From NCBI GenBank assembly GCA_026770025.1, contig JAMXDE010000051.1:1-64000 (forward strand): DNA of 64,000 bases, written 5' to 3'. Source of the stretch: Craspedostauros australis. Lineage: Eukaryota > Bacillariophyta > Bacillariophyceae > Mastogloiales > Achnanthaceae. Shown here piece by piece: positions 3,113 to 60,537 of the stretch. Position 1 is the stretch's first letter. Each line of letters starts with the position of its first letter. Under the pieces are notes generated by a model. That model was not told the DNA's origin and made no database searches. It worked only from the letters and a program-made list of their open reading frames with translations. The translations under genes were made by a program, and so were the position numbers.

Positions 3113-4489
3113 TCACGCATCGCCAATTTTGCAGCACTGTTTCCAATTCTCCATCTGGATCCGAGTAGCTTGCACGATCATCTCGACAGGGACACAGAGC
3201 AAAGAACGGCGGGCATTTGCGCGTCCGATCTTCGTGGCTCCAAGCTGCTTCGTTTCTTCGATCATGTCTTTGCCGAGGTAAACGTACGAATGGTTGACGT
3301 TCGCAACAGCCGCCAAGGTTCCGAAGCAATGCGGGATACCATACCCATGCGGTATCACTTCGATCACGGACCCGCACCGCTGCATGAATGGGATACCCGT
3401 GAGATGCGCGCCGTGGGGCGATAGCAGGATGTCTACGTTGTTCAACGCTTCCACCTGCTGCTCGAATGTGAACTCGTCGAAGAATACGATTGGTGGCCTG
3501 TACGGCAAGCGCAGTTCATGCTGCAGGATCTTGGATGTGGCGGGCGCATGAAGCAGACGTCGGCTCTTTCTACGATTGACGATGACGATGCGAGGTGTCG
3601 TGTTCTGAAGTGTTCTACGTGCTTCGTCAACATGCATCGTGCCGCAGCTTGCGTCCTGGTATTCCTCCTCCAGCCCAAGCGTCGTCAACACGCTGCGTCG
3701 GAGGTGTGCCATATCACCCATATGTGCCGCGAAAAAGCCTTTGTTGCGCGGTGTGTTAGCGATCAGCAACTTCTTGCGATCGGACGTGTAGCTCTGTCTG
3801 TAGTTCATTATCGTCTTTTGGATGACAGAGATATTGGTGTGCTCCAGGACTCGGATCATGCCAGCGCTAAAGGAGGAGCTATTCGAGAAGATCTGATAAT
3901 ACTGCGGGTGGACCAGCAGGACATGCTCCGCATCGGGAAAGTGCCGCCACAAAGACCAGCACGGGACGAGATGCTGCATCTGATGCGGGAAGTGATGGAT
4001 GAACAAGTATTCGGTGAAAGTGCACGCAACTGTTCGGATGCGCTGGTCGGAAGCTCCGCCATCTCTTGGTGGTGCCGCACCCAACGCTATCCCTTCATGA
4101 TCCCATGCCTTCTTGAGATTCCCGTACGCAGCCTTGAAGAGGGCGTCGACAGGGTACGTTCTCGGATAATGGCTCACATTGAACGCAGCAGGGATGTTTG
4201 GATCAAGGATATTGCAGTTGTGATTCGGTGGGTCGTGAAACTGCGCATCGGCTGGGTGCAGCATCATGAAGGGTGGAAAGGACGCGTTCTTGTGCTCATC
4301 CGAGGGTTGGTGCAATAGCGGCTGTTGGGCTGCATTGTTGGAGACTGAACCCATCGGCATGTCATTTTGCGGGTTGCGGAGAGCGATGGAACCGCCCGCG
4401 AGGATACGCGTGGACACCCTCAAGCCAATCAAGCTCAAAGTCAGCACCGTTGCGATCGCAAGCTTTTGGTGGCCGCTGAGGCTTCCCAT
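3113..4489 (-). CDS. GT61-family glycosyltransferase (DUF563 type), copy A
   Basis: A 458-residue protein. A short N-terminal cytoplasmic tail is followed by one hydrophobic segment (about residues 10-30), as in type II Golgi enzymes. The C-terminal half carries the GT61/DUF563 signature: 'VDILLSPHGAHLTGIPFM', then 'CGSVIEVIPHG', preceded by a basic 'NRRKSRR' strand and followed by 'YVYLGKD'. GT61 enzymes transfer xylose, arabinose or GlcNAc to glycans in the plant and animal secretory pathway; the donor here cannot be predicted. ATG 4489 (context GCC ATG G) was chosen because the frame upstream opens only with a TTG. A paralogue lies at 22275-23738. A GA-rich tract on the coding strand (4662-4698) falls in the likely 5' UTR. 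Confidence 0.85.
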   Translation of the reverse strand: MGSLSGHQKLAIATVLTLSLIGLRVSTRILAGGSIALRNPQNDMPMGSVSNNAAQQPLLHQPSDEHKNASFPPFMMLHPADAQFHDPPNHNCNILDPNIPAAFNVSHYPRTYPVDALFKAAYGNLKKAWDHEGIALGAAPPRDGGASDQRIRTVACTFTEYLFIHHFPHQMQHLVPCWSLWRHFPDAEHVLLVHPQYYQIFSNSSSFSAGMIRVLEHTNISVIQKTIMNYRQSYTSDRKKLLIANTPRNKGFFAAHMGDMAHLRRSVLTTLGLEEEYQDASCGTMHVDEARRTLQNTTPRIVIVNRRKSRRLLHAPATSKILQHELRLPYRPPIVFFDEFTFEQQVEALNNVDILLSPHGAHLTGIPFMQRCGSVIEVIPHGYGIPHCFGTLAAVANVNHSYVYLGKDMIEETKQLGATKIGRANARRSLLCVPVEMIVQATRIQMENWKQCCKIGDA

Positions 4490-5249
4490 GGCGGAGAATC
4501 GACAACGCAAAGCTCCCGTGCCGCTTCCAATCCATTCTCAAGAGCTGCGCCCTCTCCACCGCAGACGCATTTCTGTGATGGCGCCACACTTTGTGCTTGA
4601 TGTGCGTTGCGAGCAGCTTATAAATACGAGCCACACCAGCGATTCTGCCGTCTGGTCTCTATCTCTCTTGCTCTCGCTCTCCCTCTCCCTCCAGCGTGGG
4701 ATTAATGTCTCCGACGAAGTCCTGGCTGTTGTTGTTGCAGAAGATACGCGAGGTCCAATCGCGGAGGTAACATGGACACAACGAAGCAATGTCACTGGAT
4801 CGATCCGGGACTCGCACTCATGTCTTCGCGGGACCCCAATGTCAGTGTGACATTGTTTGATGGCGAGGTCTGAGTCGCGGGTGCATGGCGCAAGGTTACA
4901 CAGTTCAGAGCTACATACCTACGCGGCTGAAGTAGATGACCCGATGGACGTGACCGCAACCACACCGTCCATTGTATTATCGCATGTGCGAGTATGGCAG
5001 AGCATTGTAATCTCTAGAGAGAGAGAGAGAGAGAGAGTTGTAGAGTAGGATGCCCCTGTTCTTGTTGCGCGACCACTTGTTATAAATCAAGATAAATAGT
5101 AATCGAATTGATAGACATCTAAAGGCTACAGCAGAGTCTCTGGGTCCCTTGAAGATTGTACCCGCCGATGTTGCTATTGTTGTTGCTTTTGCTATTGCTA
5201 TTGCTGTTGGCACTGGTACAGGTGCAGGTACGTGCGGAATGATGCTCTC
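4490..5249. other. Intergenic region with two GA-rich tracts
   Basis: Promoter and 5' UTR side of the GT61 copy A gene and 3' side of the acyl-AMP ligase gene. It contains a CT-rich tract at 4662-4698 (GA-rich on the coding strand of GT61) and a perfect (AG)11 at 5016-5037. No gene is seen. Confidence 0.5.
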
Positions 5250-8200
5250 TCATGCTTCCTCATCTGATGATCCGTCATACATTGACAGCGGTTGCTTCGT
5301 GCCGGGCGGTTGGATGTCGCTGACCATCTTCCACGGGCTATGCTCCATCAATGCCGCATCCTGCGTCGCTGCTCCCTTCCTCATGAGTGCGAAGGACATT
5401 TGGTGCATCACACCATCCACGTAGCACTTACCCAGCGACAGCGTTGAGAACACACCGTAATGACCAGTGATGATACCCTCGTCCACCACAGCTCCATCAG
5501 CAAATGTCACCAGCGGAGCTTCGTAGATGCGAAAACCGAAGTACAGCATCTTTCCTTGGATAGTCGCCCCTCTGAATTGCAGCAGAGCGTTCATCATTGG
5601 TGTGCCCCAAAGAATGGATTCGAAGGACCATTCCTCGAAGAAGAAGCCGTAGGACATGTACGCCGAGTACAGCGAAACGGACCATGGCTCTCCACGTTGG
5701 ACGCCTCCGATAAGCGAGATAACCTCGATCACACGAAGGAGAACGAGCCAGACGATGGCCTGGACGACAATGGACACAACGACGATGACGGGGGCCGCGG
5801 CCAGTGGTGCTTCTGTTTTCATCATGATTGACATCAGCTCATATGACGGGATGAGGCTCGCCGCCACTATCACCACCATGATGGCATGCGCCAGCGTGTT
5901 GTTGACGGTCATGAGTGCCAATCTCCACGTGGGGAGAGGCACGTTGCTTGGATGGTGGTCCTCGTTGATCATATCACTCGTGACGTGCGTACTCGGCAAC
6001 ACCAACGATCTGTCGATGGTCACGCCAGGGCCGCATGTCAGCGCCATGCCAACGCTGCTATCCGTGACCTTGGTTCTCTTGTACTGACCGCCCTCCTCGA
6101 CATCGAAGTCGCAAAAGGAGATGAAGGATCGTCGGACCGTGATCAGATCCAGCTTCGATGGAGGGAAGGTAGTCACTCCCGCCCTCGATCTCATGTCGAT
6201 ATCCATGCCGTGTGCCATCAGGACGAGGTTCCACAGTTGCGAGTAGAATGTCAGGTCGAGGAGCAACATTGTTCCGACGAAGAAGTGGAAGTTGCATGCC
6301 CAGTCGGCGAACTTGGAGAACGTTCCTGTTCGTGCTGCACCCGGCCGTTTCTTGCCGATCAGCACCCACTTGAGGATGACGCTGGTGATCACGAAGAAGA
6401 TGGACGTCAGGCCAAAGAGCGCGATCCTGTAGATGATAGGGGAGTATCTCCATTCCGGAAGCTTATTCCCGACCAACTGATCGGCAGCCACGAAGCAACT
6501 GAAGGCGAAGTACAGCTCGATGGCGAGCCACATGACTTTCATCATTCCCAACACGGTCGATGAACCGGTGGATGTAGCGGATGTCATGTCCTCACTCGCT
6601 GTTTCGATTGCGGATTCTTCATCGCCATCTGGGAGGGCTGCCGAAGGAGCATCGACGAATGCTGGGTTGCCCTTGATTGTGGTGTTCGGGGGTGCCTGAG
6701 CGCCTTCCACCAGCACCGACACGCGCTGTACCTGGCAGCCGGAGCCGATGCTAGTTCCAGGGAGCAAGGCGCCATCGACTGTGGCGTCTGATCCAACCTG
6801 AATCTTGCGGAACTTCACGCTGGGACCTTGCTGCTCATTTCTCCATGGGCCGAACACACGGCATCGGATGTTCATGTTGATCGTGGCGTTTGCACCAATC
6901 TTCACCAAATCGAACTCTCGGATGGTCCCGTTCACGCTGGCTGACCTGTGGATGTTGGCACCCATCAGGTAGTAGAACATCATCATCAAAGGCGTGCCGG
7001 CGATGATGCAGCCAACGAAGCGTTCCCATACATGCACCAACCGATCGACGAACCACCATCTGATGAAGTAAATATTGGTCTGATTGGCGTATCCTTCTGC
7101 GTATCTGCCAATGACGATCCACTTCGAGAGGACGATCGCGGAGGTGAACGCAATGGCCCAGACTGGAACGATCAAAGGGAACAGCACCCACTCAAGACCG
7201 GGGAGGACGTTGGAGTCGGCGATGGCCTTTCCAACTTCATACGCTGGGATGATGGGGAGCGCGAAGATGACGAGCATGATGAACGCGCCGATGGCTTGGG
7301 TGATGGCGACGGCGGCTTGAGAGAGTGGCTTCTCGTTGGGGAAAGTCACAAGCCTCTTGAGGGTTGGGAGGTTGGTTGGTAGAGGCAGCCCCGTTGATGC
7401 CTCAAGGAAGGCTCTTAGATCCACAACTTTTGGAAACAGTTGGAAGACGTTTGAAGGGAGGACTTTGTTGTATCGTTGAGAGAGGGACTGGCGGAGCTCC
7501 AACTCCATCATGGAGGACAGTCCAACATCCTTCCATTCATCGTCGGGGTGGACGCCTGATCTCGTGACGTTCTCGATGATCTCATGGAAGTCCATGTCGT
7601 TGATGTTCCAGTCTTCCATCGCGGACTTCCTCAACGATAGGTGCGAGGATTGAGCTGCCGTGCCAACATCGTGCGCGCTGAAAAAGTGCGATGTCCCGGC
7701 CACATCTAGCACTATCTTCTGCGTTCCATCATGAAGGCGCTGGCGGTTGTGGCGTCTCTGGATCTTGCCGCTTGTTGTTTTGGAGATGGTCCGTTCCTCC
7801 ACAGCGACGACTGATGCCGGTGTCAACCCGATCTGGTCAACGACGGCCTTCTTGATCTGTTGGCAGATGCTTTCGACGTCATCTGTATCTGCTGAACGGA
7901 TCTCAAACACGATCTCCAACTGCCCATCGTTGTCGGTGTCGTCGGATGAAAAAGCAGCGATGCAGCCTGGACGGACAGCAGATGATGCATCTTCCACAGC
8001 TTGTTCGATGTCTTGCGGGTAGTAGTTGACACCATTGACGATTATGATGTCCTTCTTGCGGCCGCAGATGTAGAGATAATCGTCTTGGTAGAATCCGTAG
8101 TCACCTGTTCGCAAGTATACCTTGCTATCGGCATCTGCATCGGATGGTGTGGTCTCCTGCAGTCTGCCTTGGAATGTTTCGGCAGTGAGCTGTGGCTGAT

Positions 8201-9818
8201 TGTAGTATCCAGCGGCAACGGATGCTCCCGCGATCCAGATCTCTCCCGTGACGTTGTCAGAGACCTGCGAGCAGGTGTCCGGGTCCACAATGATGATGTC
8301 TACCAAACTGTGCAGATTGCTGCGTTGGGCGATGGCCACAAATGGGTGGAGATCTTCATCTGGTCGGACGGTCGACAGATGGAATCCAAAATTGAAGCTT
8401 GCTCCAACCACGTTCTCGGCCAGACCGTATCCAGCCATGAACCAGTCCTCGCACAACCCGTGCGGGCAGAAGGCCTTCGAGAATGATTCGTTCGTATCAA
8501 GCCGGATTGGCTCCGCGGCATTTTGCAGCTCGAATATACTTGAGAGATCAAGGTTGGGGATGGGATTGGACTTGCCATGTTTTGCTCGTGTCTTCGCCTC
8601 GTTGAACTTGCGGACGACCAGTCGAAACGCGAAGTCGGGGGCGGCGCTGAAATGGCACTTGTGCTGTGACATGAGATCGACCCAGAGCAATGGGTTGCGG
8701 ATGAAGGAAACCGGCGAAATCATGTGGACTCTCGAACTCGATGCCAGTGGCGCAATCACCATTTGGATGAGGCCCATGTCATGATACTGCGGCAGCCATG
8801 AAAATGTGGAGAACCGCTCCGGAAGTTGCTTGCCGCTTGTACCCTTGTCGAAGCAAGTGAGCCAACTGCTGTGCAGCAGCTCGATGTTGGCCCTCACTGC
8901 GTCATATGTCACCATCACACCCTTCGGGTTGCCGGTGCTTCCAGACGTGTACTGAAGGAAAGCCAGATCCGAGCCTTGGATGTTCGGCTCATCAAAGGAA
9001 GGTGGTGGCGACGACGAGCGGCCAGACAGGAGGCTGGACAGGAATCCTTTCTTTGCCTGCTTGGGGCCGGCCTTGCTCTTGCCGCTTCTCCTGTCGACCA
9101 AGAACGGATCATGATGGATGACGCGATCGGTCACTTGGTACTTCACCCCGCTTGGCCACATGGATCGGCTCTTGGATGCCGGATTTGCGCGATCGGCGAG
9201 ACGCAGCAGGTTGATGGTCGTCTGGGTGAGAATGACTGCCGGGGAGCAATCCTCGATCACCTTGTTCATCTTCGCGAGTGACTTGACGAGCGGTGGTCCT
9301 GGAGGATAGACCAACACAGCAGTCACGCCTGCGCGGAGGCATCCCAGAAAGATGGCGAAGAAGTGCAGTCCGAAGTCGTAGCAGAGCACGACGCGATCGC
9401 CTTTCTTGACGTCCCACTTGTTGCGGAGGAGATGGGCGCATTGTCCCGCTTCATCCCAGAGCTGCTGGAAGGTGTAGTTGTTGATTGCCTTTCCCTTGTC
9501 GTTGTACCAAGTGGAGAAGACGGTGTCGGACTTGAGTTCGACGATGAACTTGAGATGGTCGATGAAAGAGTTATCCTTGATGGACTGTTGGATGATTTCG
9601 TGCTCAGTGGCGTTGGTGTTAGCGGTAGGGCTGGCTGTGCGGTTAGCTGCGGCGTTGCTGGTGCCGGTCTCGATGTCATCGACAGCGGCGTCGTTGTTTT
9701 GGTGTTTGGAATGGTTGGCCTTTGCTGGTGGCGCACTCATGGGGATGGCGTTGCCGACAACGTCGATGGTGGCGGCGCTTCGGACGCCGGAGGAATGAGT
9801 TGAGGTAGTCACGTCCAT
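5250..9818 (-). CDS. Fatty acyl-AMP ligase / acyl carrier / Pls-PosA-type membrane tail fusion
   Basis: A 1522-residue intronless protein. Residues about 80-690 form an adenylate-forming enzyme of the fatty acyl-AMP ligase type, with P-loop 'YTSGSTGNPKG' at about 290-300, 'YGLAENVVG' near 464, 'YLRTGDYGF' near 568 and the C-terminal Lys motif 'TTSGKIQRR' near 685. An acyl carrier domain follows; 'DVGLSSMMEL' places the phosphopantetheine Ser at about 769. The last 700 residues alternate hydrophobic membrane blocks with hexapeptide-like left-handed beta-helix segments (about 955-1050, 1215-1285, 1410-1460). That layout resembles the terminal domain of Pls/PosA-type peptide synthetases. By family knowledge the ligase would adenylate a fatty acid and load the carrier. 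Transfer by the membrane part to an amine or alcohol is inference. The first ATG in frame is 9818. Confidence 0.8.
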   Translation of the reverse strand: MDVTTSTHSSGVRSAATIDVVGNAIPMSAPPAKANHSKHQNNDAAVDDIETGTSNAAANRTASPTANTNATEHEIIQQSIKDNSFIDHLKFIVELKSDTVFSTWYNDKGKAINNYTFQQLWDEAGQCAHLLRNKWDVKKGDRVVLCYDFGLHFFAIFLGCLRAGVTAVLVYPPGPPLVKSLAKMNKVIEDCSPAVILTQTTINLLRLADRANPASKSRSMWPSGVKYQVTDRVIHHDPFLVDRRSGKSKAGPKQAKKGFLSSLLSGRSSSPPPSFDEPNIQGSDLAFLQYTSGSTGNPKGVMVTYDAVRANIELLHSSWLTCFDKGTSGKQLPERFSTFSWLPQYHDMGLIQMVIAPLASSSRVHMISPVSFIRNPLLWVDLMSQHKCHFSAAPDFAFRLVVRKFNEAKTRAKHGKSNPIPNLDLSSIFELQNAAEPIRLDTNESFSKAFCPHGLCEDWFMAGYGLAENVVGASFNFGFHLSTVRPDEDLHPFVAIAQRSNLHSLVDIIIVDPDTCSQVSDNVTGEIWIAGASVAAGYYNQPQLTAETFQGRLQETTPSDADADSKVYLRTGDYGFYQDDYLYICGRKKDIIIVNGVNYYPQDIEQAVEDASSAVRPGCIAAFSSDDTDNDGQLEIVFEIRSADTDDVESICQQIKKAVVDQIGLTPASVVAVEERTISKTTSGKIQRRHNRQRLHDGTQKIVLDVAGTSHFFSAHDVGTAAQSSHLSLRKSAMEDWNINDMDFHEIIENVTRSGVHPDDEWKDVGLSSMMELELRQSLSQRYNKVLPSNVFQLFPKVVDLRAFLEASTGLPLPTNLPTLKRLVTFPNEKPLSQAAVAITQAIGAFIMLVIFALPIIPAYEVGKAIADSNVLPGLEWVLFPLIVPVWAIAFTSAIVLSKWIVIGRYAEGYANQTNIYFIRWWFVDRLVHVWERFVGCIIAGTPLMMMFYYLMGANIHRSASVNGTIREFDLVKIGANATINMNIRCRVFGPWRNEQQGPSVKFRKIQVGSDATVDGALLPGTSIGSGCQVQRVSVLVEGAQAPPNTTIKGNPAFVDAPSAALPDGDEESAIETASEDMTSATSTGSSTVLGMMKVMWLAIELYFAFSCFVAADQLVGNKLPEWRYSPIIYRIALFGLTSIFFVITSVILKWVLIGKKRPGAARTGTFSKFADWACNFHFFVGTMLLLDLTFYSQLWNLVLMAHGMDIDMRSRAGVTTFPPSKLDLITVRRSFISFCDFDVEEGGQYKRTKVTDSSVGMALTCGPGVTIDRSLVLPSTHVTSDMINEDHHPSNVPLPTWRLALMTVNNTLAHAIMVVIVAASLIPSYELMSIMMKTEAPLAAAPVIVVVSIVVQAIVWLVLLRVIEVISLIGGVQRGEPWSVSLYSAYMSYGFFFEEWSFESILWGTPMMNALLQFRGATIQGKMLYFGFRIYEAPLVTFADGAVVDEGIITGHYGVFSTLSLGKCYVDGVMHQMSFALMRKGAATQDAALMEHSPWKMVSDIQPPGTKQPLSMYDGSSDEEA

Positions 9819-11279
9819 GTTGCTAATATGCGCGAAGTTGTGCAGATTCTGATGCTGTTGGTCTATGTCGACGAGTATGTTGATAGTTGTGGTTGAGCAC
9901 TTGTGGTTTGTTGATTGTGTGAGCTGACGGTGTGTCGGTTCCAAATTCCCAGGTGGCAAACACGATGATCAGCGATCACCATCGAACGGCAGAGCATTGA
10001 CTGCGTGCTACTCGTACGAGTACGGTATAGAGTACTTCATCGTGATCGTGCGTAGTGTACCAACAAGGAAGTCCAGCACGTATGCACACGGATGTATTCG
10101 TATTCATTTTCGTGCTCGTAGTCGTAGTCACAGTCGTACCCCATCTGAGCTATGCATTCGTATCTCGCTGGTGCAATCATCGGCGCGTGCTGTTTGCGCT
10201 TCATAATCCTGACAGGCGCTTGATCAGATTTCCGTGAAGGCGCCAAAAACATCCCCGGTCACTACTTTGGGATCAAGAAGTCTCATTCGTCCCTTGCGGT
10301 CACACTGGTACGATCATACTGTGGCCGATCTCGGATGAGACTCCCAAGACACCGGATAGAATGGAGGGGTTCGAGTGGCTATTTTTTGGCGTGGCCGGCG
10401 ACTCCAGCCAATCAAATGGCTTAGACTTTATCACTGGCACGAGCAAGCCATCCCATTGAAGGGTGAATTGAGGGGAGTTTGGGTCATTTCTCCCGAGCTT
10501 TGTTGCGCTTGGAGTTCTCATTTGGAACCGTGTGACGCAGACGATCCGTTCTGTGCCGGATCGATTCTCGTCGTGAACGCTGACAGAGACGGTGGGATTG
10601 GGTGGTTGGTTTTGCACGAGGAGTTGAACAACTTTTACACTTTCTCAGAAATCACGTATTGAGCAAATAAAATGCAATTTTTGCGTGCAGTATCTCCGTG
10701 TGAGTATCTCGACGTGGCAAACTCCATTGTCGTAACTGAACGACGATTCCGACCGATACGTTCATGATATCATTGCTATGGGACTATCGTAGCTCCGTAC
10801 TGTTGTCGCTCATATCAAGTACTACCACCATAGTACCAAGTATTACGAAAAATTGACAAAATTGTTTCCACAAAATCCCAACAAAACAAGGACAGAAGTG
10901 TCCCTTTGATGTGAACGGTGACACAGCGCCATCGCCATCGCCATCAACCATGCCAACACCAACACCAGGATTGGCATCGACACAGAAGATGGTATCGATG
11001 CTGTCATTGAGTCCAACTATGCAGAGGCTTGCACTAACAAAAGGTCCAACCCATGCTCTGTATAGTGCTTGGAACAACTATCTGCTGAACACATTCAGCC
11101 ACGCTTCCGACAATACACATCCAAAGACGCACATCCAACAACGCAGACTCCATCCGCTTCGTTGGAGGTGATGGCAACATCAAGATAGCCAATTCTATGC
11201 ATCGCCCATGTGTATCACAGCCAGCCAACAACTGCCAACTTGCAATGATCATGGCGTTTATTCCAAACATAAGCATTGT
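9819..11279. other. Intergenic region between the acyl-AMP ligase gene and the old retrotransposon
   Basis: The 5' flank of the large acyl-AMP ligase gene. A palindrome TACTCGTACGAGTA lies near 10010. Open frames of about 100 codons occur on both strands at 10300-10662, but they overlap each other, have no recognisable motif, and are not called. The rest is without visible genes. Confidence 0.4.
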
Positions 11280-12077
11280 TGTGTTCGGCATGTGCTTGTT
11301 GGCAAGTCCCAATATTGGTACACTTGCTGTTGCTTGCAATGAAGATGGTGGTGGTGGTTGATCTTGATTTTGTTTGCTATTTCATTACATAGAAACCAAT
11401 ACTCTTGGTGTTGACTCCAGTGCTCCTGGATGTCCTGTCTGTTGATCCAAACCAACCATGAGTCAGATGCAGATTTGCTCCCTCTCATGATGCTCATCAT
11501 TGTCCCTGTACTTCTCTCTTACACTTGTTTGTGTAGCACTCCTATGAGATCCTACACATTCGATTCATTGTTCATCACCTTATCTTCCATGAGCATACTA
11601 CCATGCGCACGTGTAGGCGCTTTTGTCTAATTCCGAACTCCTTCTTGACCTTTCAAGATCTCGATGACCAATCGTCATTGAATCTTCCTTGTTCTCTGCC
11701 GGATGTTGAGACAGCTGTTGATGTGGTGACACAATAACATCCTGTCAACGTCAGCTGCTCTCTTCCATGCGTTCTCTGATTCCTTATTCCATCATCATAT
11801 GGTGGTCAGATGGTCAGGTCGTCATTTCGGGTTTAGTTGCAACCTCCATCGATCCTTGCTCGATGCCATGTCGGCTGGTGGACGTACAAAAGTCCTGATC
11901 CTCTCAGGTTAGATTGTCCCAACGTCCCCATGTGATTCTTGGGTGATTTGGTGTGTCCGAGTTTGTTTTGTTGTTCTCAAACATGAAACGTTCGGGACAC
12001 AAATATTGTTGATGCTAGTTGGTCGAGTCGAGGCGAACCAATTGGATGGGCGATGCACATACATATACATCTCGACA
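11280..12077 (-). repeat. 3' LTR of the old copia element
   Basis: Matches 18341-19140 in order along its length. Shared blocks include CATCTCGACA at the inner end, 'GTGGTGACACAATAACATC' (the other copy has one change), 'GTCATTGAATCTT' and 'TATTTCATTA'. The inner border directly follows a purine-rich tract. The outer border near 11280 is approximate. Confidence 0.65.
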
Positions 12078-12085
12078 CCCTTCCT
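12078..12085 (-). other. Polypurine tract of the old copia element
   Basis: On the coding strand AGGAAGGG sits directly before the LTR start TGTCGAG and 12 bases after the gag-pol stop. This is the usual place for the primer of plus-strand DNA synthesis, and it fixes the LTR border. Confidence 0.6.
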
Positions 12086-12097
12086 GTGTGCATTCGG

Positions 12098-15000
12098 TTA
12101 TGCAAATGTTCTCGATGTGTCAAGGTACGACTTCTCGTGTTCACGTTGTAAGTCGGCCTTGATGTTCTTGGTGAATCCGTTGCTTGTGTTCTGCTCTGAC
12201 TTGACGAAGATGATTTCGATGGTCTTGTTGGTTACCATGTTCCTCACGTAGTGATGGCGCACGTCGATGTGCCGCAATCGTTGGGATGTTGATGGGTTCT
12301 TGGCAATGAAGATTTCTCCGATGTTGTCCATGCGGACCTTGATCGGTGTCTTCACTGGGACACCCACACTTTCGAGTAGCTGCACAACGAAGAAGATTTC
12401 CTTTGCTGCTTCGGAAAGGGCAACATATTCTGCTTTGGATGAGCTGAGTGTGACGGCCTTCTGTGCCTTGGATCGCCAAAGGATTGGTACCTTGCACAGG
12501 TATAGGATGAACCCTCCTACGCTGATTCTCGTGTTCTTGTCTCCTCCATATTCGCTGTCGCAGAAGAGCTCCATGTCCCAGCCGTCGTCGTCTGGACATG
12601 CTGGATGGATCTTCAATCCATAGTCCTTTGTATCGATCACATACTTGATGATCCGATACATCTCCTTCATTGCGGCCTTGGTGGGCCCGATCAATACCTT
12701 GGAGAGTTCCCTCACAGGGTTCGCGATATCTGGTCGCGAGTGCTTGATGAGGAAGAGTAGCATACCGACGCCTCGGCGGTATTCGACATGTTCTTCTGGT
12801 CCGACCTTCTGCAGTCCGTCATCTTTGGATGGTCGTACGATGATTTGACCCGGGGTTCCTGGTGTTGCGTAGCGTTGCATCTTCTCAACCTTGGTTCCAA
12901 ACTCTTCAATGAGATGTTGGATGAGATGTGGTTGACGCAACGTTGCTCTGGTCTTGTCATGGTTCAGTTCGATGTTGCAGCTGAGGTAGTCTCCGAGTCC
13001 GCGCTCGATTGTCACCTTGAACTTGCTGCCTTGGATGTCCTTCAGGAATGTCTCCAGTGCCTTGGAGTCTCCGCAGCAGAAGCAATCGTCCACGTAGATG
13101 GCCACGATCATGCTTCCTTCGTTCGTCTTCCTGTAAAACAGGCACGGGTCTGCTGCGCTCTGTTCGAAGTTGATATTCTTGAGGGTCGAAACCAACATCT
13201 TGAACCATTGCCTGGCGCTCTGCACAAGTCCGTAGATTGGCTTATGTAGGGTCAGGGCTTCGTCTGGTTGATGATCCATCCCGTTGGGACAGTTCATGTA
13301 GATCTCCTCGTCGAGGCCTCCGTGTAGGAATGCCGTTACGACATCGACGAGTGCGCAGTCCATCTTCTTGATCAGCATGATCACCATCATGACCCAATAG
13401 GTCACGTCATGGATGACGGGTGAGTAATGCTCTTGGAAGTCTACTCCTGCAACTTGTGAATAGCCACATGCAACGAGCCGCGCTCGATGTGTGCCGTCAC
13501 GCTTCAGCTTGAAGACCCATTTGCATTTGCAGCATCTGCGGCCGCGTGGGATGGTATCTTGTTTGATCTTGCTGTACACCTTGCGTGTATCCATGGAGTC
13601 AAACTCCTTCTTGATGGCTGCTCGATATCCCTTCCGATGGATAGAATCTGGGTGATTGAAGGCTCCATCGAATGTTGTAGGTTCGATGTGCTTTTCTGGT
13701 TCCTTGTTCTCGTCCTGCATCGACAATCCGATGTCGATCGCTGGTGATTCGGTAATGATTGCATTCATCCCATATAGTCCAGTTGTGCTATGGTGAGTGA
13801 TCTCGATCTCTTCATCTTCGTCTTCGATTTCTTCGTCATCTGTAGTTTCGTTGTTAGAGTCGTCGATCATCTCGTCGCTGAGTTCGTCGCTCGCCTCATT
13901 GGACGATGGATCGCTCTCATAGCCTTCTTCCTTTCGACCTGGTTCGTTGAAGTCTGCGAGCTCGCGCAGAGCTCTGGGAATACTCTTTCCTGCAGTTGAC
14001 TTGGGATTAGCTTCTCCCTTCCTGCCTCGTGCTTCGTGACGTCGGATCCTCTCCTTTCTAGCTATGTCACGCTTACTTGGTTTGCTTGGTGGAGGTCTGG
14101 ATGGTGTGTCATGTGTAGACCTCGCTGGTGTGTTCGGAGGAGTGACGCCTGTGTCATCGTCGGCTTCGTCGCCGGATGGTAGGATCTCATCATCCTCATG
14201 ATTGGATTCGCTCCGATCTTCCTCGTCATTCTGGATTAGTTGAGTCACTACTCCACCGTCCTCATTATCCTCATCATCGCTGTCTGATAGGATGTAGTAC
14301 CTGTTGCTGTCAGCGAAAGATACTCTCTTCACCTCTGATGTTCGACGCGCTGCCGTCCTTGGCGTTGCTCCCTTCCGTCCGATGGCCTTGAAGCTGTCTG
14401 CGTCCGTGGTGTCTGCATTGTTGACTGTGTTTGGTGCTTGCGCCCAGCCACGGAACAGTCCGTATGATTGATTGAGCCATTTGATGTTGCGAGAACAGAC
14501 CAGTGACTTGGTTGATGGTCTGTACATGTTGTACACTCCTGATGCGTGTTGGTGTGCATATCCAATGAACACCATCTCTTCTCCTCTATTCTTGAGTTTG
14601 GCAGTGATCCCACCATAGGTCGTCTTCACAACACCCACCTTTCCGAATGTTCGAAGTGCATCAGCATATGGTGGATCACTATCGAAGAATTGGCGGTGTG
14701 GTGGCTTCTTCTGATTCTTCGCTACGGTGATGTTGGCGATGGCGGTGGCAGTGCTCACGGCTGCTGCCCACAGGCCATGCCTGTACTTGTCATTGAGTTG
14801 TGCTCCATTGAGCATGGAGCCGATCTTGGTGTAGAGATACACAAACTTGTGTTCTACTCTACCATTCTGCTGTGGCGTGTTGGATGCCGTGAACTCGAAT
14901 TTCGCATTCAGTCCAGCATTGACGAGAATGTCCTGCGTGGATTTGTTCTCTCCGCTGTTGTCTCCTCGGAAGATGATTTGTTGGTCACCTGTCGGTGATT

Positions 15001-18000
15001 TGATCGTTTGCACAAATCATTTGATGTATCCTGGTTGGTTACTTTTGTTCTTCAGAAAGAAGCTCCAGCAGTAGTCTGTGCAGTTGTCCACAATCAGAGT
15101 CCATTAACGTTTATCTCCGAAGCTTATGTGTGTAGTGTAACTAATGTCAATGAAAAGGCGTTCGCCGCGGCAACTCGCTCTTGGGATTCTGGTCTTCAAG
15201 ATGTTCTTCACTCTCGCATTCGCGACTGCGCAGTCGCGACATACCGGCATCTCGCCGATGATCTTCCATCCGTATTGAGCGGCCGTCCGCTTCATGGTCT
15301 CAAGTGGCGCGTGGCCGAGCATTCGGTGCAGGTTCACTGCGCTCACCTCTTTGGATGGATTCTTGATGATGGCTGTGGAAGTCTTGTCGTCCTCAGATGG
15401 CATGATGGGATGCATCTGCACTCCCGTGATGAATCCGTTGGAGGTGCAAAAGATCCAATCGAAGATGATCTTCTTCCCAGCTCTGTTGATGATGTCCATC
15501 AGAATGCCGTTGTTCCCAATCTGGTAACTGTTGTACAGAGCCTTGTTCATAGAGAAAAGGTTCACCACCATCTTGGGTGTGTACTTTACATCATCGAGCC
15601 AGATGGTGTGGCCAGTGTTGTCTCGTTGCTTGATTTTCAAGCGGATGGATCCCATCTTGGGAGAATCCAGCTTCATGCTGTCTCCCACTTGGACGAAAGA
15701 CTTGATGTGTCGCACGTTGAAGAGGGCGGCGTCTGAATTGACGATGTGCCACGAAGCTCCACTGTCAGCAAGCCAGGTGTCCTTGTTGACCTTGTCCTTG
15801 TATCTGGTGCTCAGCTCGTGGAGCTGCTCTACGGCTGCTGCAGCTATCTCGTCGTCAAAGCTGTCATCGTCGTCGTCTTCGTGAGCTCCATCTTTGTTGT
15901 ATGGATTGTGGTGATTCTCATCATCCATGTCGTCGGGTAGTTGTGCATAGTCCGATGGAACTGTGCTGTTTCGATGAGTTCTGGTGACTGGATCGAAAGG
16001 TGCTACTCGTGATCGCTCACGCAGTAGCACGCGCATACACCCTCCAAGGATGTAATGCAGATCCGTCTCTGGGATCGTTTCTGTGTCTTCTGCTTCCAAC
16101 AGTCGATTGATGATGACTGAGTTGGCGAGAATCTCTTCAATGGATCTGAAGTTCTCAGACAGAATGGATCCCATCATGTTCACCCATATTGGCATGAATG
16201 CTCCTTCTGGAGTTCCTGAGAACATCTCCACTCCCACTGCCATCACAGCGTCGAAAATCAGTTGCTTTTGAATCGTCAATGCTGTGGCCGTTCCGTGGGG
16301 GATTGTGTCATGTCGATGGATTTGACTCGACCTGTTGGGATTCTCGACTGGTGGGAATTGGATCCCTGTCGGATAGACGACACGCTCGTTCGGATTGAAG
16401 CTGTCGTCTGGGTGATATTCTGTTTCATCACTATCGTCTTCATCGAAGATACCCGATCTGTTATTCCCTGCCGCTGGAGCGGGCGGCGCCGCGCCGCCAT
16501 TCGTTTCATCTCGGCCTCTGTCATTCTTGTTGGGTTCGTCGTCATCTTCTTCACTCATGGCCTCCTTGATGTCGCTATCGATGGCCTCGTTGCCCATCTC
16601 AGCTCCGTCGCCGTATGGACCGATCAGGTCGTGCGCGTTGAAGCAGCATTCGTAGCTCACTTCGCGTCTTGGATCCACCTCGTGGATGATGGGCTCCTCG
16701 CTGAGCCATTCTGGGACGATCTCATCGTCCTGCGCTTCGTCGTCACTTCCAACGTACTCGAAGCTATCGAAGAAGGAGTCTTCGATGTAGTCGTCGGACA
16801 CCAACATGCAGAGCGGCATGTCCTTTGCCGAGAGTACCATCTCGTGCCCGCTCTTGTCGTGTCCTTGTGTTGCTGTGTTGGCCTGTTCGTCGGCCTTCTT
16901 CTTCTCGTTGAACTTCTTCTTTCGGCATTCTGCCTCGCGATGTCCGAAGATGCCGCAGTAGTTGCACTTGCCCTTGAAACCGCTTCCCTTGTTGCGATTG
17001 TTGTTGCGCTTTCCGTTCATCTTGTTATTGTTGTTGTTTTTCTTGTTGTTCGATTTCTTGCGTTCTGGGCAATCGGCGGATCTGTGACCATACACACCAC
17101 AGTTGTGGCAGGTACCCTTGAAGTTACCGGTACTCGTGAAACCGGTGTCGTTGCTCTTCGTGTTACTGTCTTGGAAGTCGTCCACGTATGCCTTGCCTCC
17201 TTGATGAGTGGCGTATGCTGTGCGGAGTACTCCTCTGATCGCGTTGATGGTAACCAGTTCCGGATTAAACGTGAGTTGGTGTTGGAAGTTCACGATGTGG
17301 GTTCTGTATTCCACGCTCACCGTGCTGAGGATCTGCATGATCATTTCCTCGTCCGTGATCTTGTACTTGACATCGTGGAGACGCGATCGTAGACCCTCGA
17401 GTCGCGTGATGTAGATGTCGGGGTCCGTGTTTCTCTTCATCTTTTCGTTGTTGAACTGTCGCTTGAGTTTGATCTTCGTTGCTGCATCGGATGGACGGAA
17501 CTTCTCCGCGAGAACATTCCACGCTGCGTGTGGATCTCCTTCGGGATAATCGTCGGAGACGCATTGGTTGATGTACTGGATGGCCTGCTTGCCTTTTCCT
17601 TTCTCTGCATCCATCATGAGGACCAGATCGCTGAAGCAGTCGCATCCCAGCTCGTAGATTTCCTCCATCGCTTCCTTGGCATCGTTGACGGCTGCCTCGA
17701 TCTCACTCACTGTTGGGATCTTCGTCTTGCCCAACATCACGTCTCTCGTCTTCTGTGTACAAGTGTATGCCTTTGCTTGGGACTCCCATGCGCTATAATC
17801 CTCTTGTTCACCACTGAATATTGGCGCCTTGATGCGTCGCTTGTTCGTGTTGGCTGGTGTCGCCATGTTGACTTGTTGTTTCGTTGTTGGTGCGCTCGCG
17901 CCCTTGATTTCCGTTTGTTTCTGTGTTGTCGATTCCTCGATTTTCGCTTGTTGTTTCGCAAGGATTGATTTGCTCACAAATTCTCCTCCTGGTGGTGTCT

Positions 18001-18271
18001 CACTTTTCCCACCCTGTTTGGCTGTGCGAATGCTCTCCGTCACACCAGTCTCCTCTTGCTTGACCGTCTTGAGAATCCTCTTCTCCTCACGGTGTAGTCT
18101 TGCAGACCGTTCCTCTTCGATCTCGTTGATTGCGCTTGCGTCTACGCCTGATAGGACAGTAGCCGCGGCTGCTTCCTTCTCTTGTCATGGTTGAGTCTCA
18201 CTCGCACCTTCTTCTTGCTTGATAGCCAGTTGGGACAGAGGGATGTCTTTCAATTCCTCTTCCTTGCTCAT
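12098..18271 (-). pseudogene. Ty1/copia gag-pol with three in-frame stops
   Basis: One frame of 2058 codons runs from ATG 18271 to the stop at 12098 without any frameshift. It is interrupted by TGA at 18185-18187, TAA at 15104-15106 and TGA at 15017-15019. Gag has two CCHC zinc knuckles (CHNCGVYGHRSADC and CNYCGIFGHREAEC) in an Asn/Lys-rich region. The protease motif is 'LADSGASWHIV'. The pre-integrase region ('MLGHAPLETMKR') and integrase core follow, the latter ending in 'NTPQQNGRVEH' where related proteins have E. Reverse transcriptase carries 'YVDDC' and RNase H carries 'SSSKAEYVALS'. The second and third stops fall within the integrase. It cannot make an intact polyprotein unless stops are read through. 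Confidence 0.8.
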
Positions 18272-18340
18272 TCAGCCTGCTGCTCTTGAATGATGTTGTC
18301 TTCCTTGCACAATCCAATCCGCAGGCTTGCCCTGATCTAT

Positions 18341-19140
18341 TGTTCATAAAAGTATTGGCAAGTTCCGTGAACGGATACCTTGCGATCGTGGAAGATGGTG
18401 TTGTTGTTTGGTGCTGATTCTCTCTGATATTTCATTATGCTGCTACTCCAATCTGCTTGGTGTACTCTGTTGCTTCGACTGATGCTCTTGGCACATCTGT
18501 TCGATGGTCTGACTATGAGTCGGTACACAAGATACTCTCTTACTCTTGTGTGTGTTCTCTCTCTCTCTCTCTCTCTCTTGGTATTGCATGTTCACACCAT
18601 GCAATATTATGTATTCGATGCATACTCCGCATTTCGTTATCTACAAGCTCACTACTCCATGAGTAATTGTCAATGCACCCACACTGTATTCCTCCTTGCA
18701 TACTTATGATCTTGATGTCCCTTGGTCATTGAATCTTTGCCTTCTTGATCTGATGTGGAGACAGATGCCAATGTGGTGACACAATGACATCTTGTTGATG
18801 TCAGCTGTCAGATTCCAAGGTCCTTGTCATTCCACATTCCATTGATGATGCAATGGGTCAGCAAGGGTATCGTCATTTGAGGTTTAGTTGGGAAGTATAT
18901 CAAGCCTGACTTGATATCACATGTTTTGTTGATGGATGGACAGACGATGTTCCTCATAATCTCAGAAATCCGTGCTTACAGATTTCCTCCAGAAATTCAG
19001 TTCGTTTTCGTGTGTTCCATTTCATGATGTGATGTTGGCAAATCACAGTTCACTATTGACACGAATGTAGTTGTACCATCTGTACATGAGTAAAAAGAAA
19101 ACGGGTGAACGATGCACATACACGAATGTACATCTCGACA
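18341..19140 (-). repeat. 5' LTR of the old copia element
   Basis: Partner of 11280-12077. It contains a (TC) microsatellite of about 23 bp near 18555-18578 that the other LTR lacks. On the coding strand it begins TGTCGAGATG and ends GAACA, followed by ATAGATCAGGGC, the position expected for the primer-binding site; I did not recognise the tRNA. Confidence 0.65.
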
Positions 19141-20937
19141 CAGGTGTCAATGATATCTCTACACGCACATTGATGTGACAGGGATGGATGGATGGGTGTT
19201 TGTTGAATGCCAAGTATGGCACAGCTGAGTATGAGAGGGTGGGGGACTGTTGTGTTGAAGTATATTTATTGTTGGGGATTGTTTGTTGGCATGGCTTGGG
19301 TTCTTGGCATGGCATGCTTCTTCTTTCACTCTCGATCCCACTGCTGCATGAGCTACACAATTGCTCCACGGATGAAGTTGAGTTGGAAGGGTGGGAGGGA
19401 GGAGGCAGTGTCGATTGGTGGTCTTGTCAACGAGTTTCTGAATGGTTGTGTTCAGAGTAGAGCGTGGATTGCCACACACAAGAAACCAACGCTCCTCCTC
19501 GTTGCCAACAACGCTAGTAGATCACGTATCAAAGTACTCAATTTTTGGCATTATCGTCCGTATTTTTGAGCGGTGGCTGCTGTTTGGACAGAAAGCAACA
19601 CGAAGAGACAAGAATCATGCATTGATTGGCACACACAAGTTACAAAAAGAGAGAGATCCGGACAGTCAATCAATAATGTTTGTTCAGATTGGGAAAAACG
19701 CGAAAACCAATGTTGGTACCATGAGGAAACAAACAGTTTGACGAAACAGTGTGGGCGACAGGAAAGGAAGAAAGCGAATCGTGACGTCACATGGGCATTG
19801 GAAAGACCCTAATCCTCACGAAAGTGACTGTCTCCATTGCGCCCAGACGAGTCTCTATTGCGGGGCTCCCCCTGGCATTGAGTCATCCTGGTGTGTCTCA
19901 GTACCCAAGTTCTGGGGCCACTCGAACCCCTCCAATAGTCGAAGAGTGGGTGCGACATAGTAGTAGCTCAACAAGAGGCACACTGGTTGAGGCTTCGAAG
20001 TTGTGACTGAGGCATCCGTTCTGTGACTGGTTTCGCGTTTGTGTTTATTGGACAGTTTCGTTGTGGTGGCCGGCGAACTCCACAGGAGCCAAATTCGTCA
20101 GCATTTGCCGCAATGAAGAAGTTTCAAGGTTGTTCTCACTGGTCGCTCCAACCACCGAATCATGGTTTTTTGTTTGTTTGCCGCAGCTTTGTCTACGGTC
20201 GTGGTGGTTGTTCGTTCGTGTGGGCGGGCACAGCGGGAAGCATGAAATCGCATAGGTACCTGACCGCTCATGCACGCACGGGCGAAGAGAAGTACGTTCG
20301 GTGTAGAGACCATCACCGAGCACGTATGCTGCATGGTACACGACCTGTGCAAGCGTGTCATGAAACCCACTTTGCCAAAGCACACTCCGTGCAGCCATCG
20401 TCGTACGTGTACAACGAGCAACGTGGAGTGCGTGGCCGCCAACCATCGTACTCGTAGGACCCACAAAGGATGTGAACTGATCCCGACCTATTCTCATCGC
20501 AATTCCATGTGCTTGTGTCATTTACGAGTAGGTTGTATCACATTACTAACTTTATCGAATGAATTATTATGGTTTATTCTTGTATGAGTATGTATCCATT
20601 GAGTATCGTACGACTATTATTGGTTGCTCCTATGGAACTGCTGATTCCATGTGCGCTCCGCCAGGCTCTGAAAAGGGAGCTTGTGGTATCATTCAATTCT
20701 GAGTTGCATCATCTTCGATGGTCAATCACGCTATTGACCACGGTTCTTGGCTCTAGTCGCCATGTGTAGCTCGTACGTATGCACTACATCGGCGGTGACA
20801 TGCATCGCGGTGGAGTTGCGCATTTCGCATTCCCACGTACGCCTCTCCAATGTATTGCAACAGCATTGCTGTATGGTATGCGTGCGAGTAAGAGTACGAG
20901 TACGAGTCTGTTTGATACAATCGATCCGACCGGACCA
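19141..20937. other. Intergenic region, no supported gene
   Basis: About 1.8 kb between the old copia element and the 3' end of the small membrane-protein gene. A GTGACGTCAC palindrome containing the bZIP/CRE core is at 19781-19790, and GAGTACGAGTAC-type repeats are near 20890-20910. Overlapping open frames of 100-160 codons occur on both strands around 20000-20520, without motifs. Confidence 0.4.
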
Positions 20938-22274: not shown

Positions 22275-23738
22275 CTAGTTGAGGTCTGGCATACTCGTAG
22301 ACGTAAAACCGCAGCGCTGTCTCCAATTGTGGATCTGCTGCGACAAAGCTTCCAGGATCGTATCGATCGGCGTGCATAATAGCTGTTCGCGCGCTATTCT
22401 TCGAGATTCCAGTGTCTTCATGGCCTCCTTCCTCTCTTCGTCGATATCCTTCCCAAGGTAGATGACGGTATGGTTAAGATTGGATAGTGCAGCCAACGAC
22501 CCGAACCACCGTCGAAAGTCGAAGGTGTGGGGGAAGACTTCGATGACTGACGAACACTGCGGCATGAAAAACAAGGTGCTCTCCTGTGCACCGTGTGGCG
22601 TGAGAATGATGTCGATGTTTTGGAACGCTTCGATTTGCTCCTGCATGCTGAAGGTCTCGTAGTAATAGACTGGTGGCGTGTAGGCCAAGCCAAACCGATC
22701 CTTGATGGCGGCGGATATGTTTTGGGACTGCAGCAGTCGACGTGTGAATCTCCGGCTGAGAATCCCAATCCGCGGCATGTATTCGCTCGATTGCTCCATC
22801 AATTGCTGCTGCTCTGCGGGAGTCATGTTGAAATATAGTTCGGTATCATCAACTCTGAGATCTGTGGAGCAGTGCGGCATTGAGAGTTTGGATCCTGGAA
22901 TGCTCTCGAGCAATGTCTGCTTGAAGGTTTCCAGATCGTCGCTGTTGGCCATGTTGTAGTCGACGAATGAAAATGTCTGCGCCACGAGAAGCTGCTTGAG
23001 ATCTGACGTATTACCGTACATCTCAACGTACTCTGCCTTCGTCATTTCGTAGATAGGGGTGTTTGCATATTTGAGCATTTCAAGGAGTGCCCGGTTGAAA
23101 GGATGCTTCCTGATTTGGTGGAGCCTTCCGACGTCGATCACCATTGTGCGATTTGCATCAGGGAAGCGTTCCCACAGGGACCAGCACTCGAGCATCTGTT
23201 GCAGGAAATGCGGGAAGTGGTGCACGATGCTTGTTCTGAAGAAAAAGCATGCCACCATCTCGAAAGGTTCACCAGTAATCGACTTTCGCGTTTTCCATGC
23301 TTTGTTGAGACTCCCGTGGACCTTGCCCAGAAATTGCTCCGGACGATACCGATTGGGGTAGTCGGTGGTCATGTAGGTCGATTCGAGACTGGAGTTGGTG
23401 ATGGTGCAGGTGCGGGGTTCCGGATCTGCGAATTGCGGGTCGTTGTGATGCTGTTTCATGAAGTCTGGGAACGCAGAGATTGATCGAGGAGGGTCGAGTG
23501 GTGGCGGTGGACCCTGTGCTAGGCTCTGTTGCGAAAGGCCCACCGAATCGCCGATAGTCGACGAATGGACTGCTTGGTCAACGAAGCTCGTCATGATCGA
23601 GGGCTGAATGATGGGACTTTCATCTATGGCAGGCTTCGGCCGGACGTTGGGATCAAATAGAGGCATGGCGGAAAACATGATGATGGCCACAACGGAGACC
23701 ATCGGCGTGACCTGTCTTCCTTTCTTCTTATGTGCCAT
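22275..23738 (-). CDS. GT61-family glycosyltransferase (DUF563 type), copy B
   Basis: A 487-residue protein. The N-terminus 'MAHKKKGRQ' precedes a hydrophobic anchor (about residues 12-28), a type II topology suited to the Golgi. The catalytic half carries 'IDIILTPHGAQESTLFFM', 'CSSVIEVFPHTF' and 'VIYLGKD', which align with copy A (3113-4489) in the same order, as do 'ILSRRFTRRLLQS' and 'YYYETFSMQEQIEAFQN'. In this copy the HGA motif is followed by QES where copy A has HLT, so acceptor or donor specificity may differ. ATG 23738 is the first ATG in frame. It is divergent from the NYN-domain gene at 24514, so the 775 bp between them may hold both promoters. Confidence 0.85.
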   Translation of the reverse strand: MAHKKKGRQVTPMVSVVAIIMFSAMPLFDPNVRPKPAIDESPIIQPSIMTSFVDQAVHSSTIGDSVGLSQQSLAQGPPPPLDPPRSISAFPDFMKQHHNDPQFADPEPRTCTITNSSLESTYMTTDYPNRYRPEQFLGKVHGSLNKAWKTRKSITGEPFEMVACFFFRTSIVHHFPHFLQQMLECWSLWERFPDANRTMVIDVGRLHQIRKHPFNRALLEMLKYANTPIYEMTKAEYVEMYGNTSDLKQLLVAQTFSFVDYNMANSDDLETFKQTLLESIPGSKLSMPHCSTDLRVDDTELYFNMTPAEQQQLMEQSSEYMPRIGILSRRFTRRLLQSQNISAAIKDRFGLAYTPPVYYYETFSMQEQIEAFQNIDIILTPHGAQESTLFFMPQCSSVIEVFPHTFDFRRWFGSLAALSNLNHTVIYLGKDIDEERKEAMKTLESRRIAREQLLCTPIDTILEALSQQIHNWRQRCGFTSTSMPDLN

Positions 23739-59055: not shown

Positions 59056-60537
59056 ATGGCACAATACACCGAGAGAAGAAGAACAGGCAAAGCGAAACGA
59101 GCGCAGTTCTCGACGCTCGTGTTCCGCGGTCTCTTCTTCGTGGCTGTCATCATCATCGTCGTCCAGCATCAGGCTCTGCTGAAGCAGCAGCGCGAGTTGG
59201 AGGGAAGAGACGGTGGCGGGCGTGCTCATGCGGACAATGCCATCGCAGGGCCTCCAACCTCCAAGCATGGCTTCGTTTGGCATCGCAACGTCACGCGCTG
59301 CATGATCGGCCAACGCGAAGTATCGCTGCCGTCCTTTCCGGACTTCATCATCGCCGGGGCTCAGAAGAGCGGCACCACGGCCTTGTTCAACTTCCTGTCG
59401 CAGCATTCCTTGTTGCGAAACAGCGACAATCCCGAGACGCACTACTTCGATTGGACCTACCCGGGTCCAAAACACATCGACGAATGGCTGATCAAGCGCA
59501 ACTTGACGATGCAAGTTCACACGGAAACGGAGCTGCAATGCGCTTTTCGATTGGACTACGCGAGGGAGTGGCGGCAATGGGACGAAGTTGCGCGGTGGAT
59601 CGGCTATGGAAGCACTCCCGACGGCGCTGATGCGAATGGCGGTGGTGCCAATGGCGCATCGAGCAATGATGCAAGCCCTCCGGACATGGCAACCTCGAAG
59701 TACCTCTACTTCGAAAAGACGCCATCCTATCTCTTCCATTCGAAGGTCCCGCCAAGGATCAATCGAATCGGCTCTCTCGGCGGAGCAACGCCGCCCAAGA
59801 TCATCTTCATCCTGCGCAACCCCATCGACCGTGCCTATTCGCACTACCGCGTGAGCAAAAGTGCCAGCGACCGATCCTTCGAGGATCTCATCGATGCCGA
59901 AGTCAGGTGCATGACCAATGTCGGCTTGGTGCAGGCACCGACGAGGGAGGAATTCATGGATCTGCTGAGCGCGTCCAATCCAGATCCGAACGATCCGACC
60001 TTCCAGCGACGAGTCTGCAACTTGAGATCATTCACTTCGGCGCATGCAGCGGCACCTGCAGCAAATGATAACGGTGCCCAAGACGATGGAGATCGCCACC
60101 TCCGCGATGCGGTCCAGAAGCTGAGGGACAAGTTCGCACCGCCGCAACTGACACGAGCCAAGACGATCGCGGCGCACGAATCAGTCTTCCGCCGCATATT
60201 CGCCAACAACTTCCTGCAACGCAGCATGTACGCCACTCACGTGCGCAACTGGATCAAGTACTTCCCGCTGCACGACAAGATGACGATCGTCCTGTGGGAG
60301 GATTTTCGATCGTCCCCGCACAAGGTGTACGGCAGAATTTTGGACTTTGTCGGTGTGCCAGCGTCGTTGCATGAGTACCCGGACAGCGGGTTCGACGAGC
60401 AGCACAACTTCAACAGCGAATATGTAGAGCCGATGGATGCAGGGACGCGTTGCTATTTGCGGTATTGGTTCGATGCATACAACCGCGATTTGAGCGATCT
60501 CATGCAGATCGGGCGCGACGACTTGCGATGGGATTAG
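59056..60537 (+). CDS. Golgi-type sulfotransferase (Sulfotransfer_1 family)
   Basis: A 493-residue type II membrane protein: basic N-terminus, one membrane anchor (about residues 20-36), then the catalytic domain. The PAPS 5'-phosphosulfate loop is 'FIIAGAQKSGTTALFNFL' (97-114). 'YFEKTPSYLF' (218-227) matches the KTP motif of heparan-type sulfotransferases. The 3'-phosphate motif 'IIFILRNPIDRAYSHYR' lies at 249-265, with R254 and S262 as likely contacts. A later block, 'ITKYF/WIKYFPL...MTIVLWEDF', is typical of the fold. It moves sulfate from PAPS to a carbohydrate, or possibly tyrosine, in the Golgi. Diatom extracellular polysaccharides are often sulfated, so such a substrate is plausible. 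The insert at 188-212 is low-complexity. ATG 59056 is used; an upstream ATG at 59051 is in another frame. Confidence 0.9.
   Translation: MAQYTERRRTGKAKRAQFSTLVFRGLFFVAVIIIVVQHQALLKQQRELEGRDGGGRAHADNAIAGPPTSKHGFVWHRNVTRCMIGQREVSLPSFPDFIIAGAQKSGTTALFNFLSQHSLLRNSDNPETHYFDWTYPGPKHIDEWLIKRNLTMQVHTETELQCAFRLDYAREWRQWDEVARWIGYGSTPDGADANGGGANGASSNDASPPDMATSKYLYFEKTPSYLFHSKVPPRINRIGSLGGATPPKIIFILRNPIDRAYSHYRVSKSASDRSFEDLIDAEVRCMTNVGLVQAPTREEFMDLLSASNPDPNDPTFQRRVCNLRSFTSAHAAAPAANDNGAQDDGDRHLRDAVQKLRDKFAPPQLTRAKTIAAHESVFRRIFANNFLQRSMYATHVRNWIKYFPLHDKMTIVLWEDFRSSPHKVYGRILDFVGVPASLHEYPDSGFDEQHNFNSEYVEPMDAGTRCYLRYWFDAYNRDLSDLMQIGRDDLRWD

Follow-up and report, generated by a model that had tools for sequence, protein, structure and literature searches.

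The closest described relatives of the protein reported here are the Pls and PosA synthetases (TIGR02353), which, as described in PMC10522769, combine an adenylation domain, a carrier and three pairs of membrane helices alternating with beta-helical segments. According to that source poly-lysine is not made by the adenylation and carrier domains alone, which implicates the tail in bond formation, and the Pls tail has been modelled as three packed left-handed beta-helices. Eukaryotic homologues are already on record in the same paper, from fungi and from some Metazoa, Alveolata and Amoebozoa, and a eukaryotic tail of Pls type is therefore no novelty by itself. The other end of the molecule finds parallels in didomain fatty acyl-AMP ligases (FAALs) such as HapA and NocH, where a FAAL is followed by its own carrier and which PMC11837247 describes as handing the acyl chain to a PKS/NRPS or a ketosynthase, and in DIP2, described in PMC8460268 as a DMAP1-binding domain with two FAAL-like domains. 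The latter source gives a FAAL-specific insertion or helix and rejection of CoA as FAAL traits.

The window, a 64,000-nucleotide stretch of DNA from the diatom Craspedostauros australis, contains one frame in which these elements are brought together (Table 1). Like Pls/PosA the protein has an adenylating domain, a carrier and three membrane-helix pairs alternating with beta-helical segments, and the tails have KW, GxP, Glu and His positions in common. Unlike Pls/PosA, however, it has a FAAL as first domain and no amino-acid A domain, it has lost the E-D-R..K residues that follow the His, its repeats 2 and 3 are short, its tail is 17–20% identical to bacterial Pls tails, and it belongs to a large recombining gene family. 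As in the didomain FAALs, a FAAL precedes its own carrier, but the diatom chain continues into a Pls-type membrane tail. With DIP2 it shares a eukaryotic FAAL-like domain, although the layout differs, as a lone FAAL is followed here by a carrier and a tail of Pls type; there is a single AMP-binding stretch, and no match to the DMAP1-binding domain was seen in Pfam at E up to 1. Hexapeptide acyltransferases such as LpxA and LpxD, which have a left-handed beta-helix, assemble as homotrimers and possess neither membrane helices nor an activating domain, whereas in the diatom tail a single chain holds three repeats, two of them degenerate. A search of open-access full texts turned up no description of a protein that joins a FAAL to a Pls-type tail, which is not proof of absence. 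The single intact frame claimed in the earlier note is confirmed at the same coordinates, with 1522 codons and no internal stop; an upstream TTG start would extend it to 1569 aa.

Table 1. Features of the window gene and its product (positions in the window; residues counted from the ATG).
Feature	Position	Strand	Basis
Complete coding frame	5250..9818	minus	1522 aa from ATG plus stop; relatives span most of length
Variable N-terminus, residues 1-80	9579..9818	minus	Paralog identity comparison
FAAL N-terminal domain (AMP-binding), residues 112-539	8202..9485	minus	PF00501 E 1.2e-56; NCBIfam; PDB matches; tree
FAAL C-terminal domain, residues 589-690	7749..8054	minus	PF23024 33.7 bits vs cut-off 27
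Acyl carrier domain, residues 752-804	7407..7565	minus	PF00550 E 0.002, below cut-off
Ser769 in GLSS, carrier domain	7512-7514	minus	Invariant in paralogs
Membrane helix pair 1, residues 839-857 and 879-897	7128..7304	minus	Family-averaged hydropathy; model helices
Beta-helix 1, residues 953-1052	6663..6962	minus	
Membrane helix pair 2, residues 1098-1149	6372..6527	minus	Hydropathy; model
Degenerate beta segment 2, residues 1205-1290	5949..6206	minus	Block E2-B2; low model confidence
Membrane helix pair 3, residues 1305-1360	5739..5906	minus	Hydropathy; model
Beta segment 3, residues 1405-1470, with Glu1433 and His1453	5409..5606	minus	Residue conservation; block E3-B3
Glu1433	5520-5522	minus	Beta segment 3
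His1453	5460-5462	minus	Beta segment 3

The first domain appears to be FAAL-like, nearer to FAALs than to amino-acid A domains. In the NCBIfam ranking, FAAL or FAAL-bearing models stand at the top (1.4e-88) and the amino-acid adenylation model AA-adenyl-dom reaches 3.8e-36, with the subfamily cut-off exceeded for none of the 25 models shown (for example PRK05850, 297.7 bits against 775). FAAL-type enzymes are among the best solved-structure (PDB) matches, and the DIP2-like AMP C-domain model of Pfam matches at E 4e-8. In a 30-row tree, eight diatom and eight bacterial FAAL-side rows group together (100/100) while all 14 Pls A domains lie on the opposite side (100/100); the diatom branch is long (1.83), as is that of the FAAL-side row L133. 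Two of the eight bacterial rows (L130 and L137) are annotated as fatty acyl-AMP ligases and the other six are tblastn matches of the window protein, so the FAAL name rests on NCBIfam and the weight of the tree lies in the separation from Pls A domains. At least 30 of the 31 paralogs keep the adenylation motifs and the C-terminal SGK lysine. The tree, in which the domain does not cluster with amino-acid adenylation domains, and, independently, NCBIfam support the suggestion that this domain looks lipid-specific. Residues 1–80 ahead of it are far more variable, with a mean pairwise identity of 0.41 against 0.76–0.85 in the FAAL parts (33 paralogs).

The carrier was proposed in the earlier note from its Ser motif, and the serine itself stands, being kept in 31 of 31 paralogs and in all 14 rows of a diatom/bacterial alignment, whereas the window copy scores under the PF00550 cut-off (18.8 bits against 20.8). 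Among the paralogs L012 exceeds this cut-off with 23.2 bits, and L027 has no match up to 0.01.

The tail on its own matches TIGR02353, the Pls/PosA terminal domain, at E 2.6e-22, and a profile-profile comparison of the diatom tail with that domain gives E 1e-28. At 79 bits the window tail misses the curated cut-off of 423.1, and by these comparisons it is best described as a homologue of the Pls/PosA terminal domain that is not filed as a Pls/PosA member. Hydropathy reveals three hydrophobic pairs alternating with strand-rich segments, and the structure model has the same three-repeat layout, in agreement with the alternation of membrane blocks and beta-helix segments, and with the Pls/PosA kinship, that had been read from the sequence at first sight. 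Repeats 2 and 3 are shorter and degenerate, with low model confidence in places, and internal repeats are weak when the diatom tail is compared within itself alone. In 30 column shuffles block E2-B2 did not exceed 17.6, its actual score being 37.6; block E3-B3 scores 31.0 against a shuffle maximum of 24.2. The first beta-helix of the model matches N-/O-acyltransferases in a structure comparison chiefly of model residues 77–251; none of the matches listed extends to the other repeats, about which this comparison is therefore silent. A mixed diatom/bacterial profile finds LpxA and LpxD among its matches to solved chains, so that solved members of the left-handed beta-helix acyltransferase fold are represented; as gamma-carbonic anhydrases head the list and a diatom-only profile gives weak matches to solved structures (best E 0.011), the match lists do not single out acyl transfer.

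Residue conservation in the tail was judged against 89 columns that are nearly invariant (at least 38 of 40) in bacterial tails. All 33 paralogs and all 40 bacterial Pls tails have a His at the position of His1453, and at that of Glu1433 a Glu stands in 30 of the 33 (Asp in the other three) and again in all 40. Beyond this His, the residues E, D, R and K of all 40 bacterial tails are replaced in all 33 diatom paralogs, and many further near-invariant bacterial columns, chiefly in repeats 2 and 3, are altered or absent. The alignment of repeat 3 is of low identity, the aligner chose to place a one-residue gap ahead of the His, and a smaller alignment (A2) did not recover the His column.

These domain identities, like the conservation, average selection, copy number and mosaicism described here, come from sequence comparison, and from them we infer all catalytic steps, the roles of His and Glu, the acceptor and what the mosaicism is for. 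Given the order of FAAL, carrier and a membrane tail of acyltransferase fold, activation, loading and transfer within one chain is the simplest reading. The FAAL would adenylate a fatty acid with ATP and load the acyl group onto the phosphopantetheine of its own carrier at Ser769, and the tail would then pass it on to an acceptor at the membrane that offers an amine or a hydroxyl; His1453, next to Glu1433, would probably serve as the general base. The canonical Pls/PosA tail joins amino acids, and the loss of E-D-R..K after the His may go with a change of substrate. We regard a single-chain, membrane-anchored acyl-conjugate synthase as the best explanation of the gene, and a fairly probable one.

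It is rather unlikely that the protein is instead an acyl-carrier loading station or a lipid regulator like DIP2, in which the tail would only anchor the protein or sense lipid and the acyl group would be used by another enzyme or by none. The FAAL C-domain does match the DIP2-like Pfam model, DIP2 is reported in PMC9342972 as a diacylglycerol regulator, and the degenerate, low-confidence repeats 2 and 3 of the model make a non-catalytic anchor possible; however, the protein lacks the DIP2 layout, and the tail His (33/33), Glu (30/33) and carrier Ser (31/31) are retained. Less probable still is a polymerase as in Pls/PosA, with the FAAL activating an amino- or hydroxy-fatty acid and the tail joining many of these into a polyamide or polyester. 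The characterised relatives of the tail do polymerise (PMC10522769), and the three-repeat layout and the His are kept, but the 33 paralogs lack the charged residues that stand next to that His in 40 of 40 bacterial tails compared, and repeats 2 and 3 are shortened. We know of no diatom polyamide or polyester product of amino- or hydroxy-fatty acids.

No FAAL-Pls fusion was seen among prokaryotic Pls loci when the best 80 of 156 relatives were examined; the adenylation domain is of amino-acid type in 78, and the other two (L061 and L086) have no adenylation match in the DNA examined. Nor is there such a fusion in 31 loci that come from 28 of 1566 genomes sampled across four phyla: 25 are A-type, L175 weakly, and six have no adenylation match in the DNA examined. 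One of these six, L147, was extended as L153 and encodes a 1504-aa protein (L153:961-5472, G324:C244) in a genome drawn from the phylum of L060 (Myxococcales). Its domains match a FadD7-type acyl-CoA ligase model (1.7e-75), PP-binding (7.6e-14) and the Pls-type tail (9.3e-49). L153 therefore resembles the diatom protein in joining a non-amino-acid acyl-activating domain to a carrier and a Pls-type tail in which the His is kept and EDR is absent, but the best model for its activating domain is that of a FadD7-type acyl-CoA ligase and not of a FAAL, and for this reason its fusion looks independent. In these two lineages only, the diatom family and L153, loss of EDR..K with retention of the His appears to accompany a change of substrate, which offers a testable specificity rule for the tail. 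The Pls/PosA membrane domain, otherwise characterised in amino-acid polymerisation as far as PMC10522769 describes it, would thereby be extended to a likely fatty-acyl donor, with L153 as the bacterial parallel. A tree of bacterial tails places no donor for the diatom tail, whose branch is 3.59 long (that of L153 is 2.42), and no relative was found among the viral contigs scanned. In two other loci, L155 and L156, Pls-type tail matches lie in frames of 824 and 861 aa with no adenylation match in the DNA examined; these are possible stand-alone tails, L156 being partly masked.

Within the host genome (74.8 Mb in 90 contigs) 31 loci including the window gene, with 31 of 65 candidates scored, match the window protein over most of its length at 59–100% identity, four of them on contig C9 and three each on C20, C2 and C7. 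The membrane part of TIGR02353 is matched at 38 loci, counted as 43 rows less two that match the hexapeptide end only and three second rows of the same genes. None passes the TIGR02353 cut-off; in the control search 13 of 14 genomes had matches, one of them above the cut-off, and the host counts are of membrane-part rows only. Long frames are present at 34 of the 38 loci, namely the 31 from the full-length search plus L121, L123 and L126. The frame of L031 is shorter (1375 aa from ATG), and L024 has a TAA within the matched span, yet a frame of 1526 aa. L122 and L125 are truncated, and the loci on C45 and C20 are fragments beside transposon frames. The long-frame loci found stand for at most 34 distinct genes, as there may be alleles among them. 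The FAAL C-domain has 41 matches genome-wide, 34 in the long-frame genes, two in L122 and L125, and five elsewhere (three on C54, and C20:629076 and C8:111426). The three on C54 (G000:C54:123991-141769) lie in frames of 692–741 aa in a row after the full copy at C54:99700, and in two of them the matched part contains a TAG.

Judged by dN/dS, the family is on average under purifying selection. Ten sister pairs give 0.18–0.36, except for 0.70 in one nearly identical pair, and values pooled by domain, which took only pairs with dS of 0.05–1, lie at 0.14–0.39; repeat 3 has the highest of these, with individual pairs up to 1.08.

The copies are also mosaics of one another. In a set of 33 genes, which never included L122 and from which L031, L125 and two transposon rows were removed, we distinguish 12 FAAL types (codons 290–480, 88% cut) and nine tail types (codons 920–1470, 85% cut), both thresholds being our choice; 16 sites in 285–560 are fixed within FAAL types but different between them. 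One FAAL type is paired with three tail types (L011, L013 and L020), four FAAL types occur beside one and the same tail type, and there is one complete loop of four combinations. L013, for example, is 98–100% identical to L011 in 60-codon windows starting at codons 261–741 (66–93% to L014), and 98–100% identical to L014 from codon 921 on (49–79% to L011). Seven of the 33 genes pass a two-sided 5-point criterion, L012 only against distant partners (83% and 68%), and in the four cases read the exchange points fall between about codons 490 and 900. In AU tests, for which the groups were picked after seeing the identities, FAAL data reject two tail clades (p 3e-39 and 2e-70) and tail data reject two FAAL clades (p 2e-5 and 9e-8). 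Flanks are involved as well: L003 and L004 share FAAL, tail and 450 bases of 3' flank at 100% while their closest upstream relatives differ, and L019 matches L006 in its upstream and L018 in its downstream flank. The many combinations and incompatible trees indicate that FAAL and tail halves have been swapped among copies, and either gene conversion or ectopic crossover would produce the observed flank and half mosaics. That haplotigs or misassembly have inflated the copy number and mosaicism is very improbable: the L001/L002 segments, which align at 90–97% apart from a copia-bearing insertion, could be alleles and L003 and L004 are nearly identical, but mean nucleotide identities of 68–87% between FAAL types and 59–78% between tail types lie far beyond allelic difference, several copies share one contig, and the mosaic genes are open frames.

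Exchange of FAALs and tails among dozens of copies would give many donor/acceptor combinations. We tentatively suggest, as a possibility and not as our main expectation, that the family is a recombining library of one-protein lipid-conjugate synthases, in which FAAL halves would select the acyl group and tails the acceptor, with upstream flanks exchanged too, so that more than 30 intact paralogs would make diversified, undescribed acyl amides or esters, possibly tied to the silica wall, in a manner like bacterial module swapping. Such a family would point to an undescribed class of algal lipid conjugates. In this eukaryotic synthetase family several domain swaps have already come about by recombination with the reading frames left intact, and in-frame swaps with exchange points at about codons 490–900 are what designers of chimeric synthetases seek.

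The host is a silicifying alga, as marked by a very large family of silicon transporters. At least 480 of 513 positions are covered in 32 rows, 28 of which have no stop; many fragments come in addition, and the control search matched one of 14 genomes, below cut-off. The transporters and the LTR copia elements fit the eukaryotic host that the earlier note had assumed. Three of the 38 family loci lie less than 2.5 kb from a silicon-transporter match, against 0.34 expected under uniform placement (Poisson 0.005, and 0.04 within 10 kb and 0.03 within 50 kb), using 55 of 88 rows with further pieces of the same genes left out. However, two of these three loci seem to go back to duplication of a single segment, and the remaining 35 lie more than 37 kb from such a match or have none on their contig; we treat the linkage as weak.

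No recurrent gene cluster was seen around the copies in the few flanks of 4–6 kb examined. GT61 glycosyltransferase frames lie on both sides of the window gene (3116-4510 and 22278-23738). We considered GT61 as a linked pathway and rejected it, as there are 74 matches genome-wide and, by eye, only the copies on C49 and C1 have one within 5 kb. Between the window gene and the second of these frames, 10362-19934 is an insertion of about 9.6 kb relative to the homologous segment of contig C1, which is without it, and contains LTR copia frames (gag, RVT_2) at 12101-18043. Further along the window, a 2414-codon frame at 36273-43517 on the minus strand matches a copia-type reverse transcriptase in its final part (36276-37700), and 59056-60534 encodes a sulfotransferase-domain protein (PF00685, 9.9e-15).
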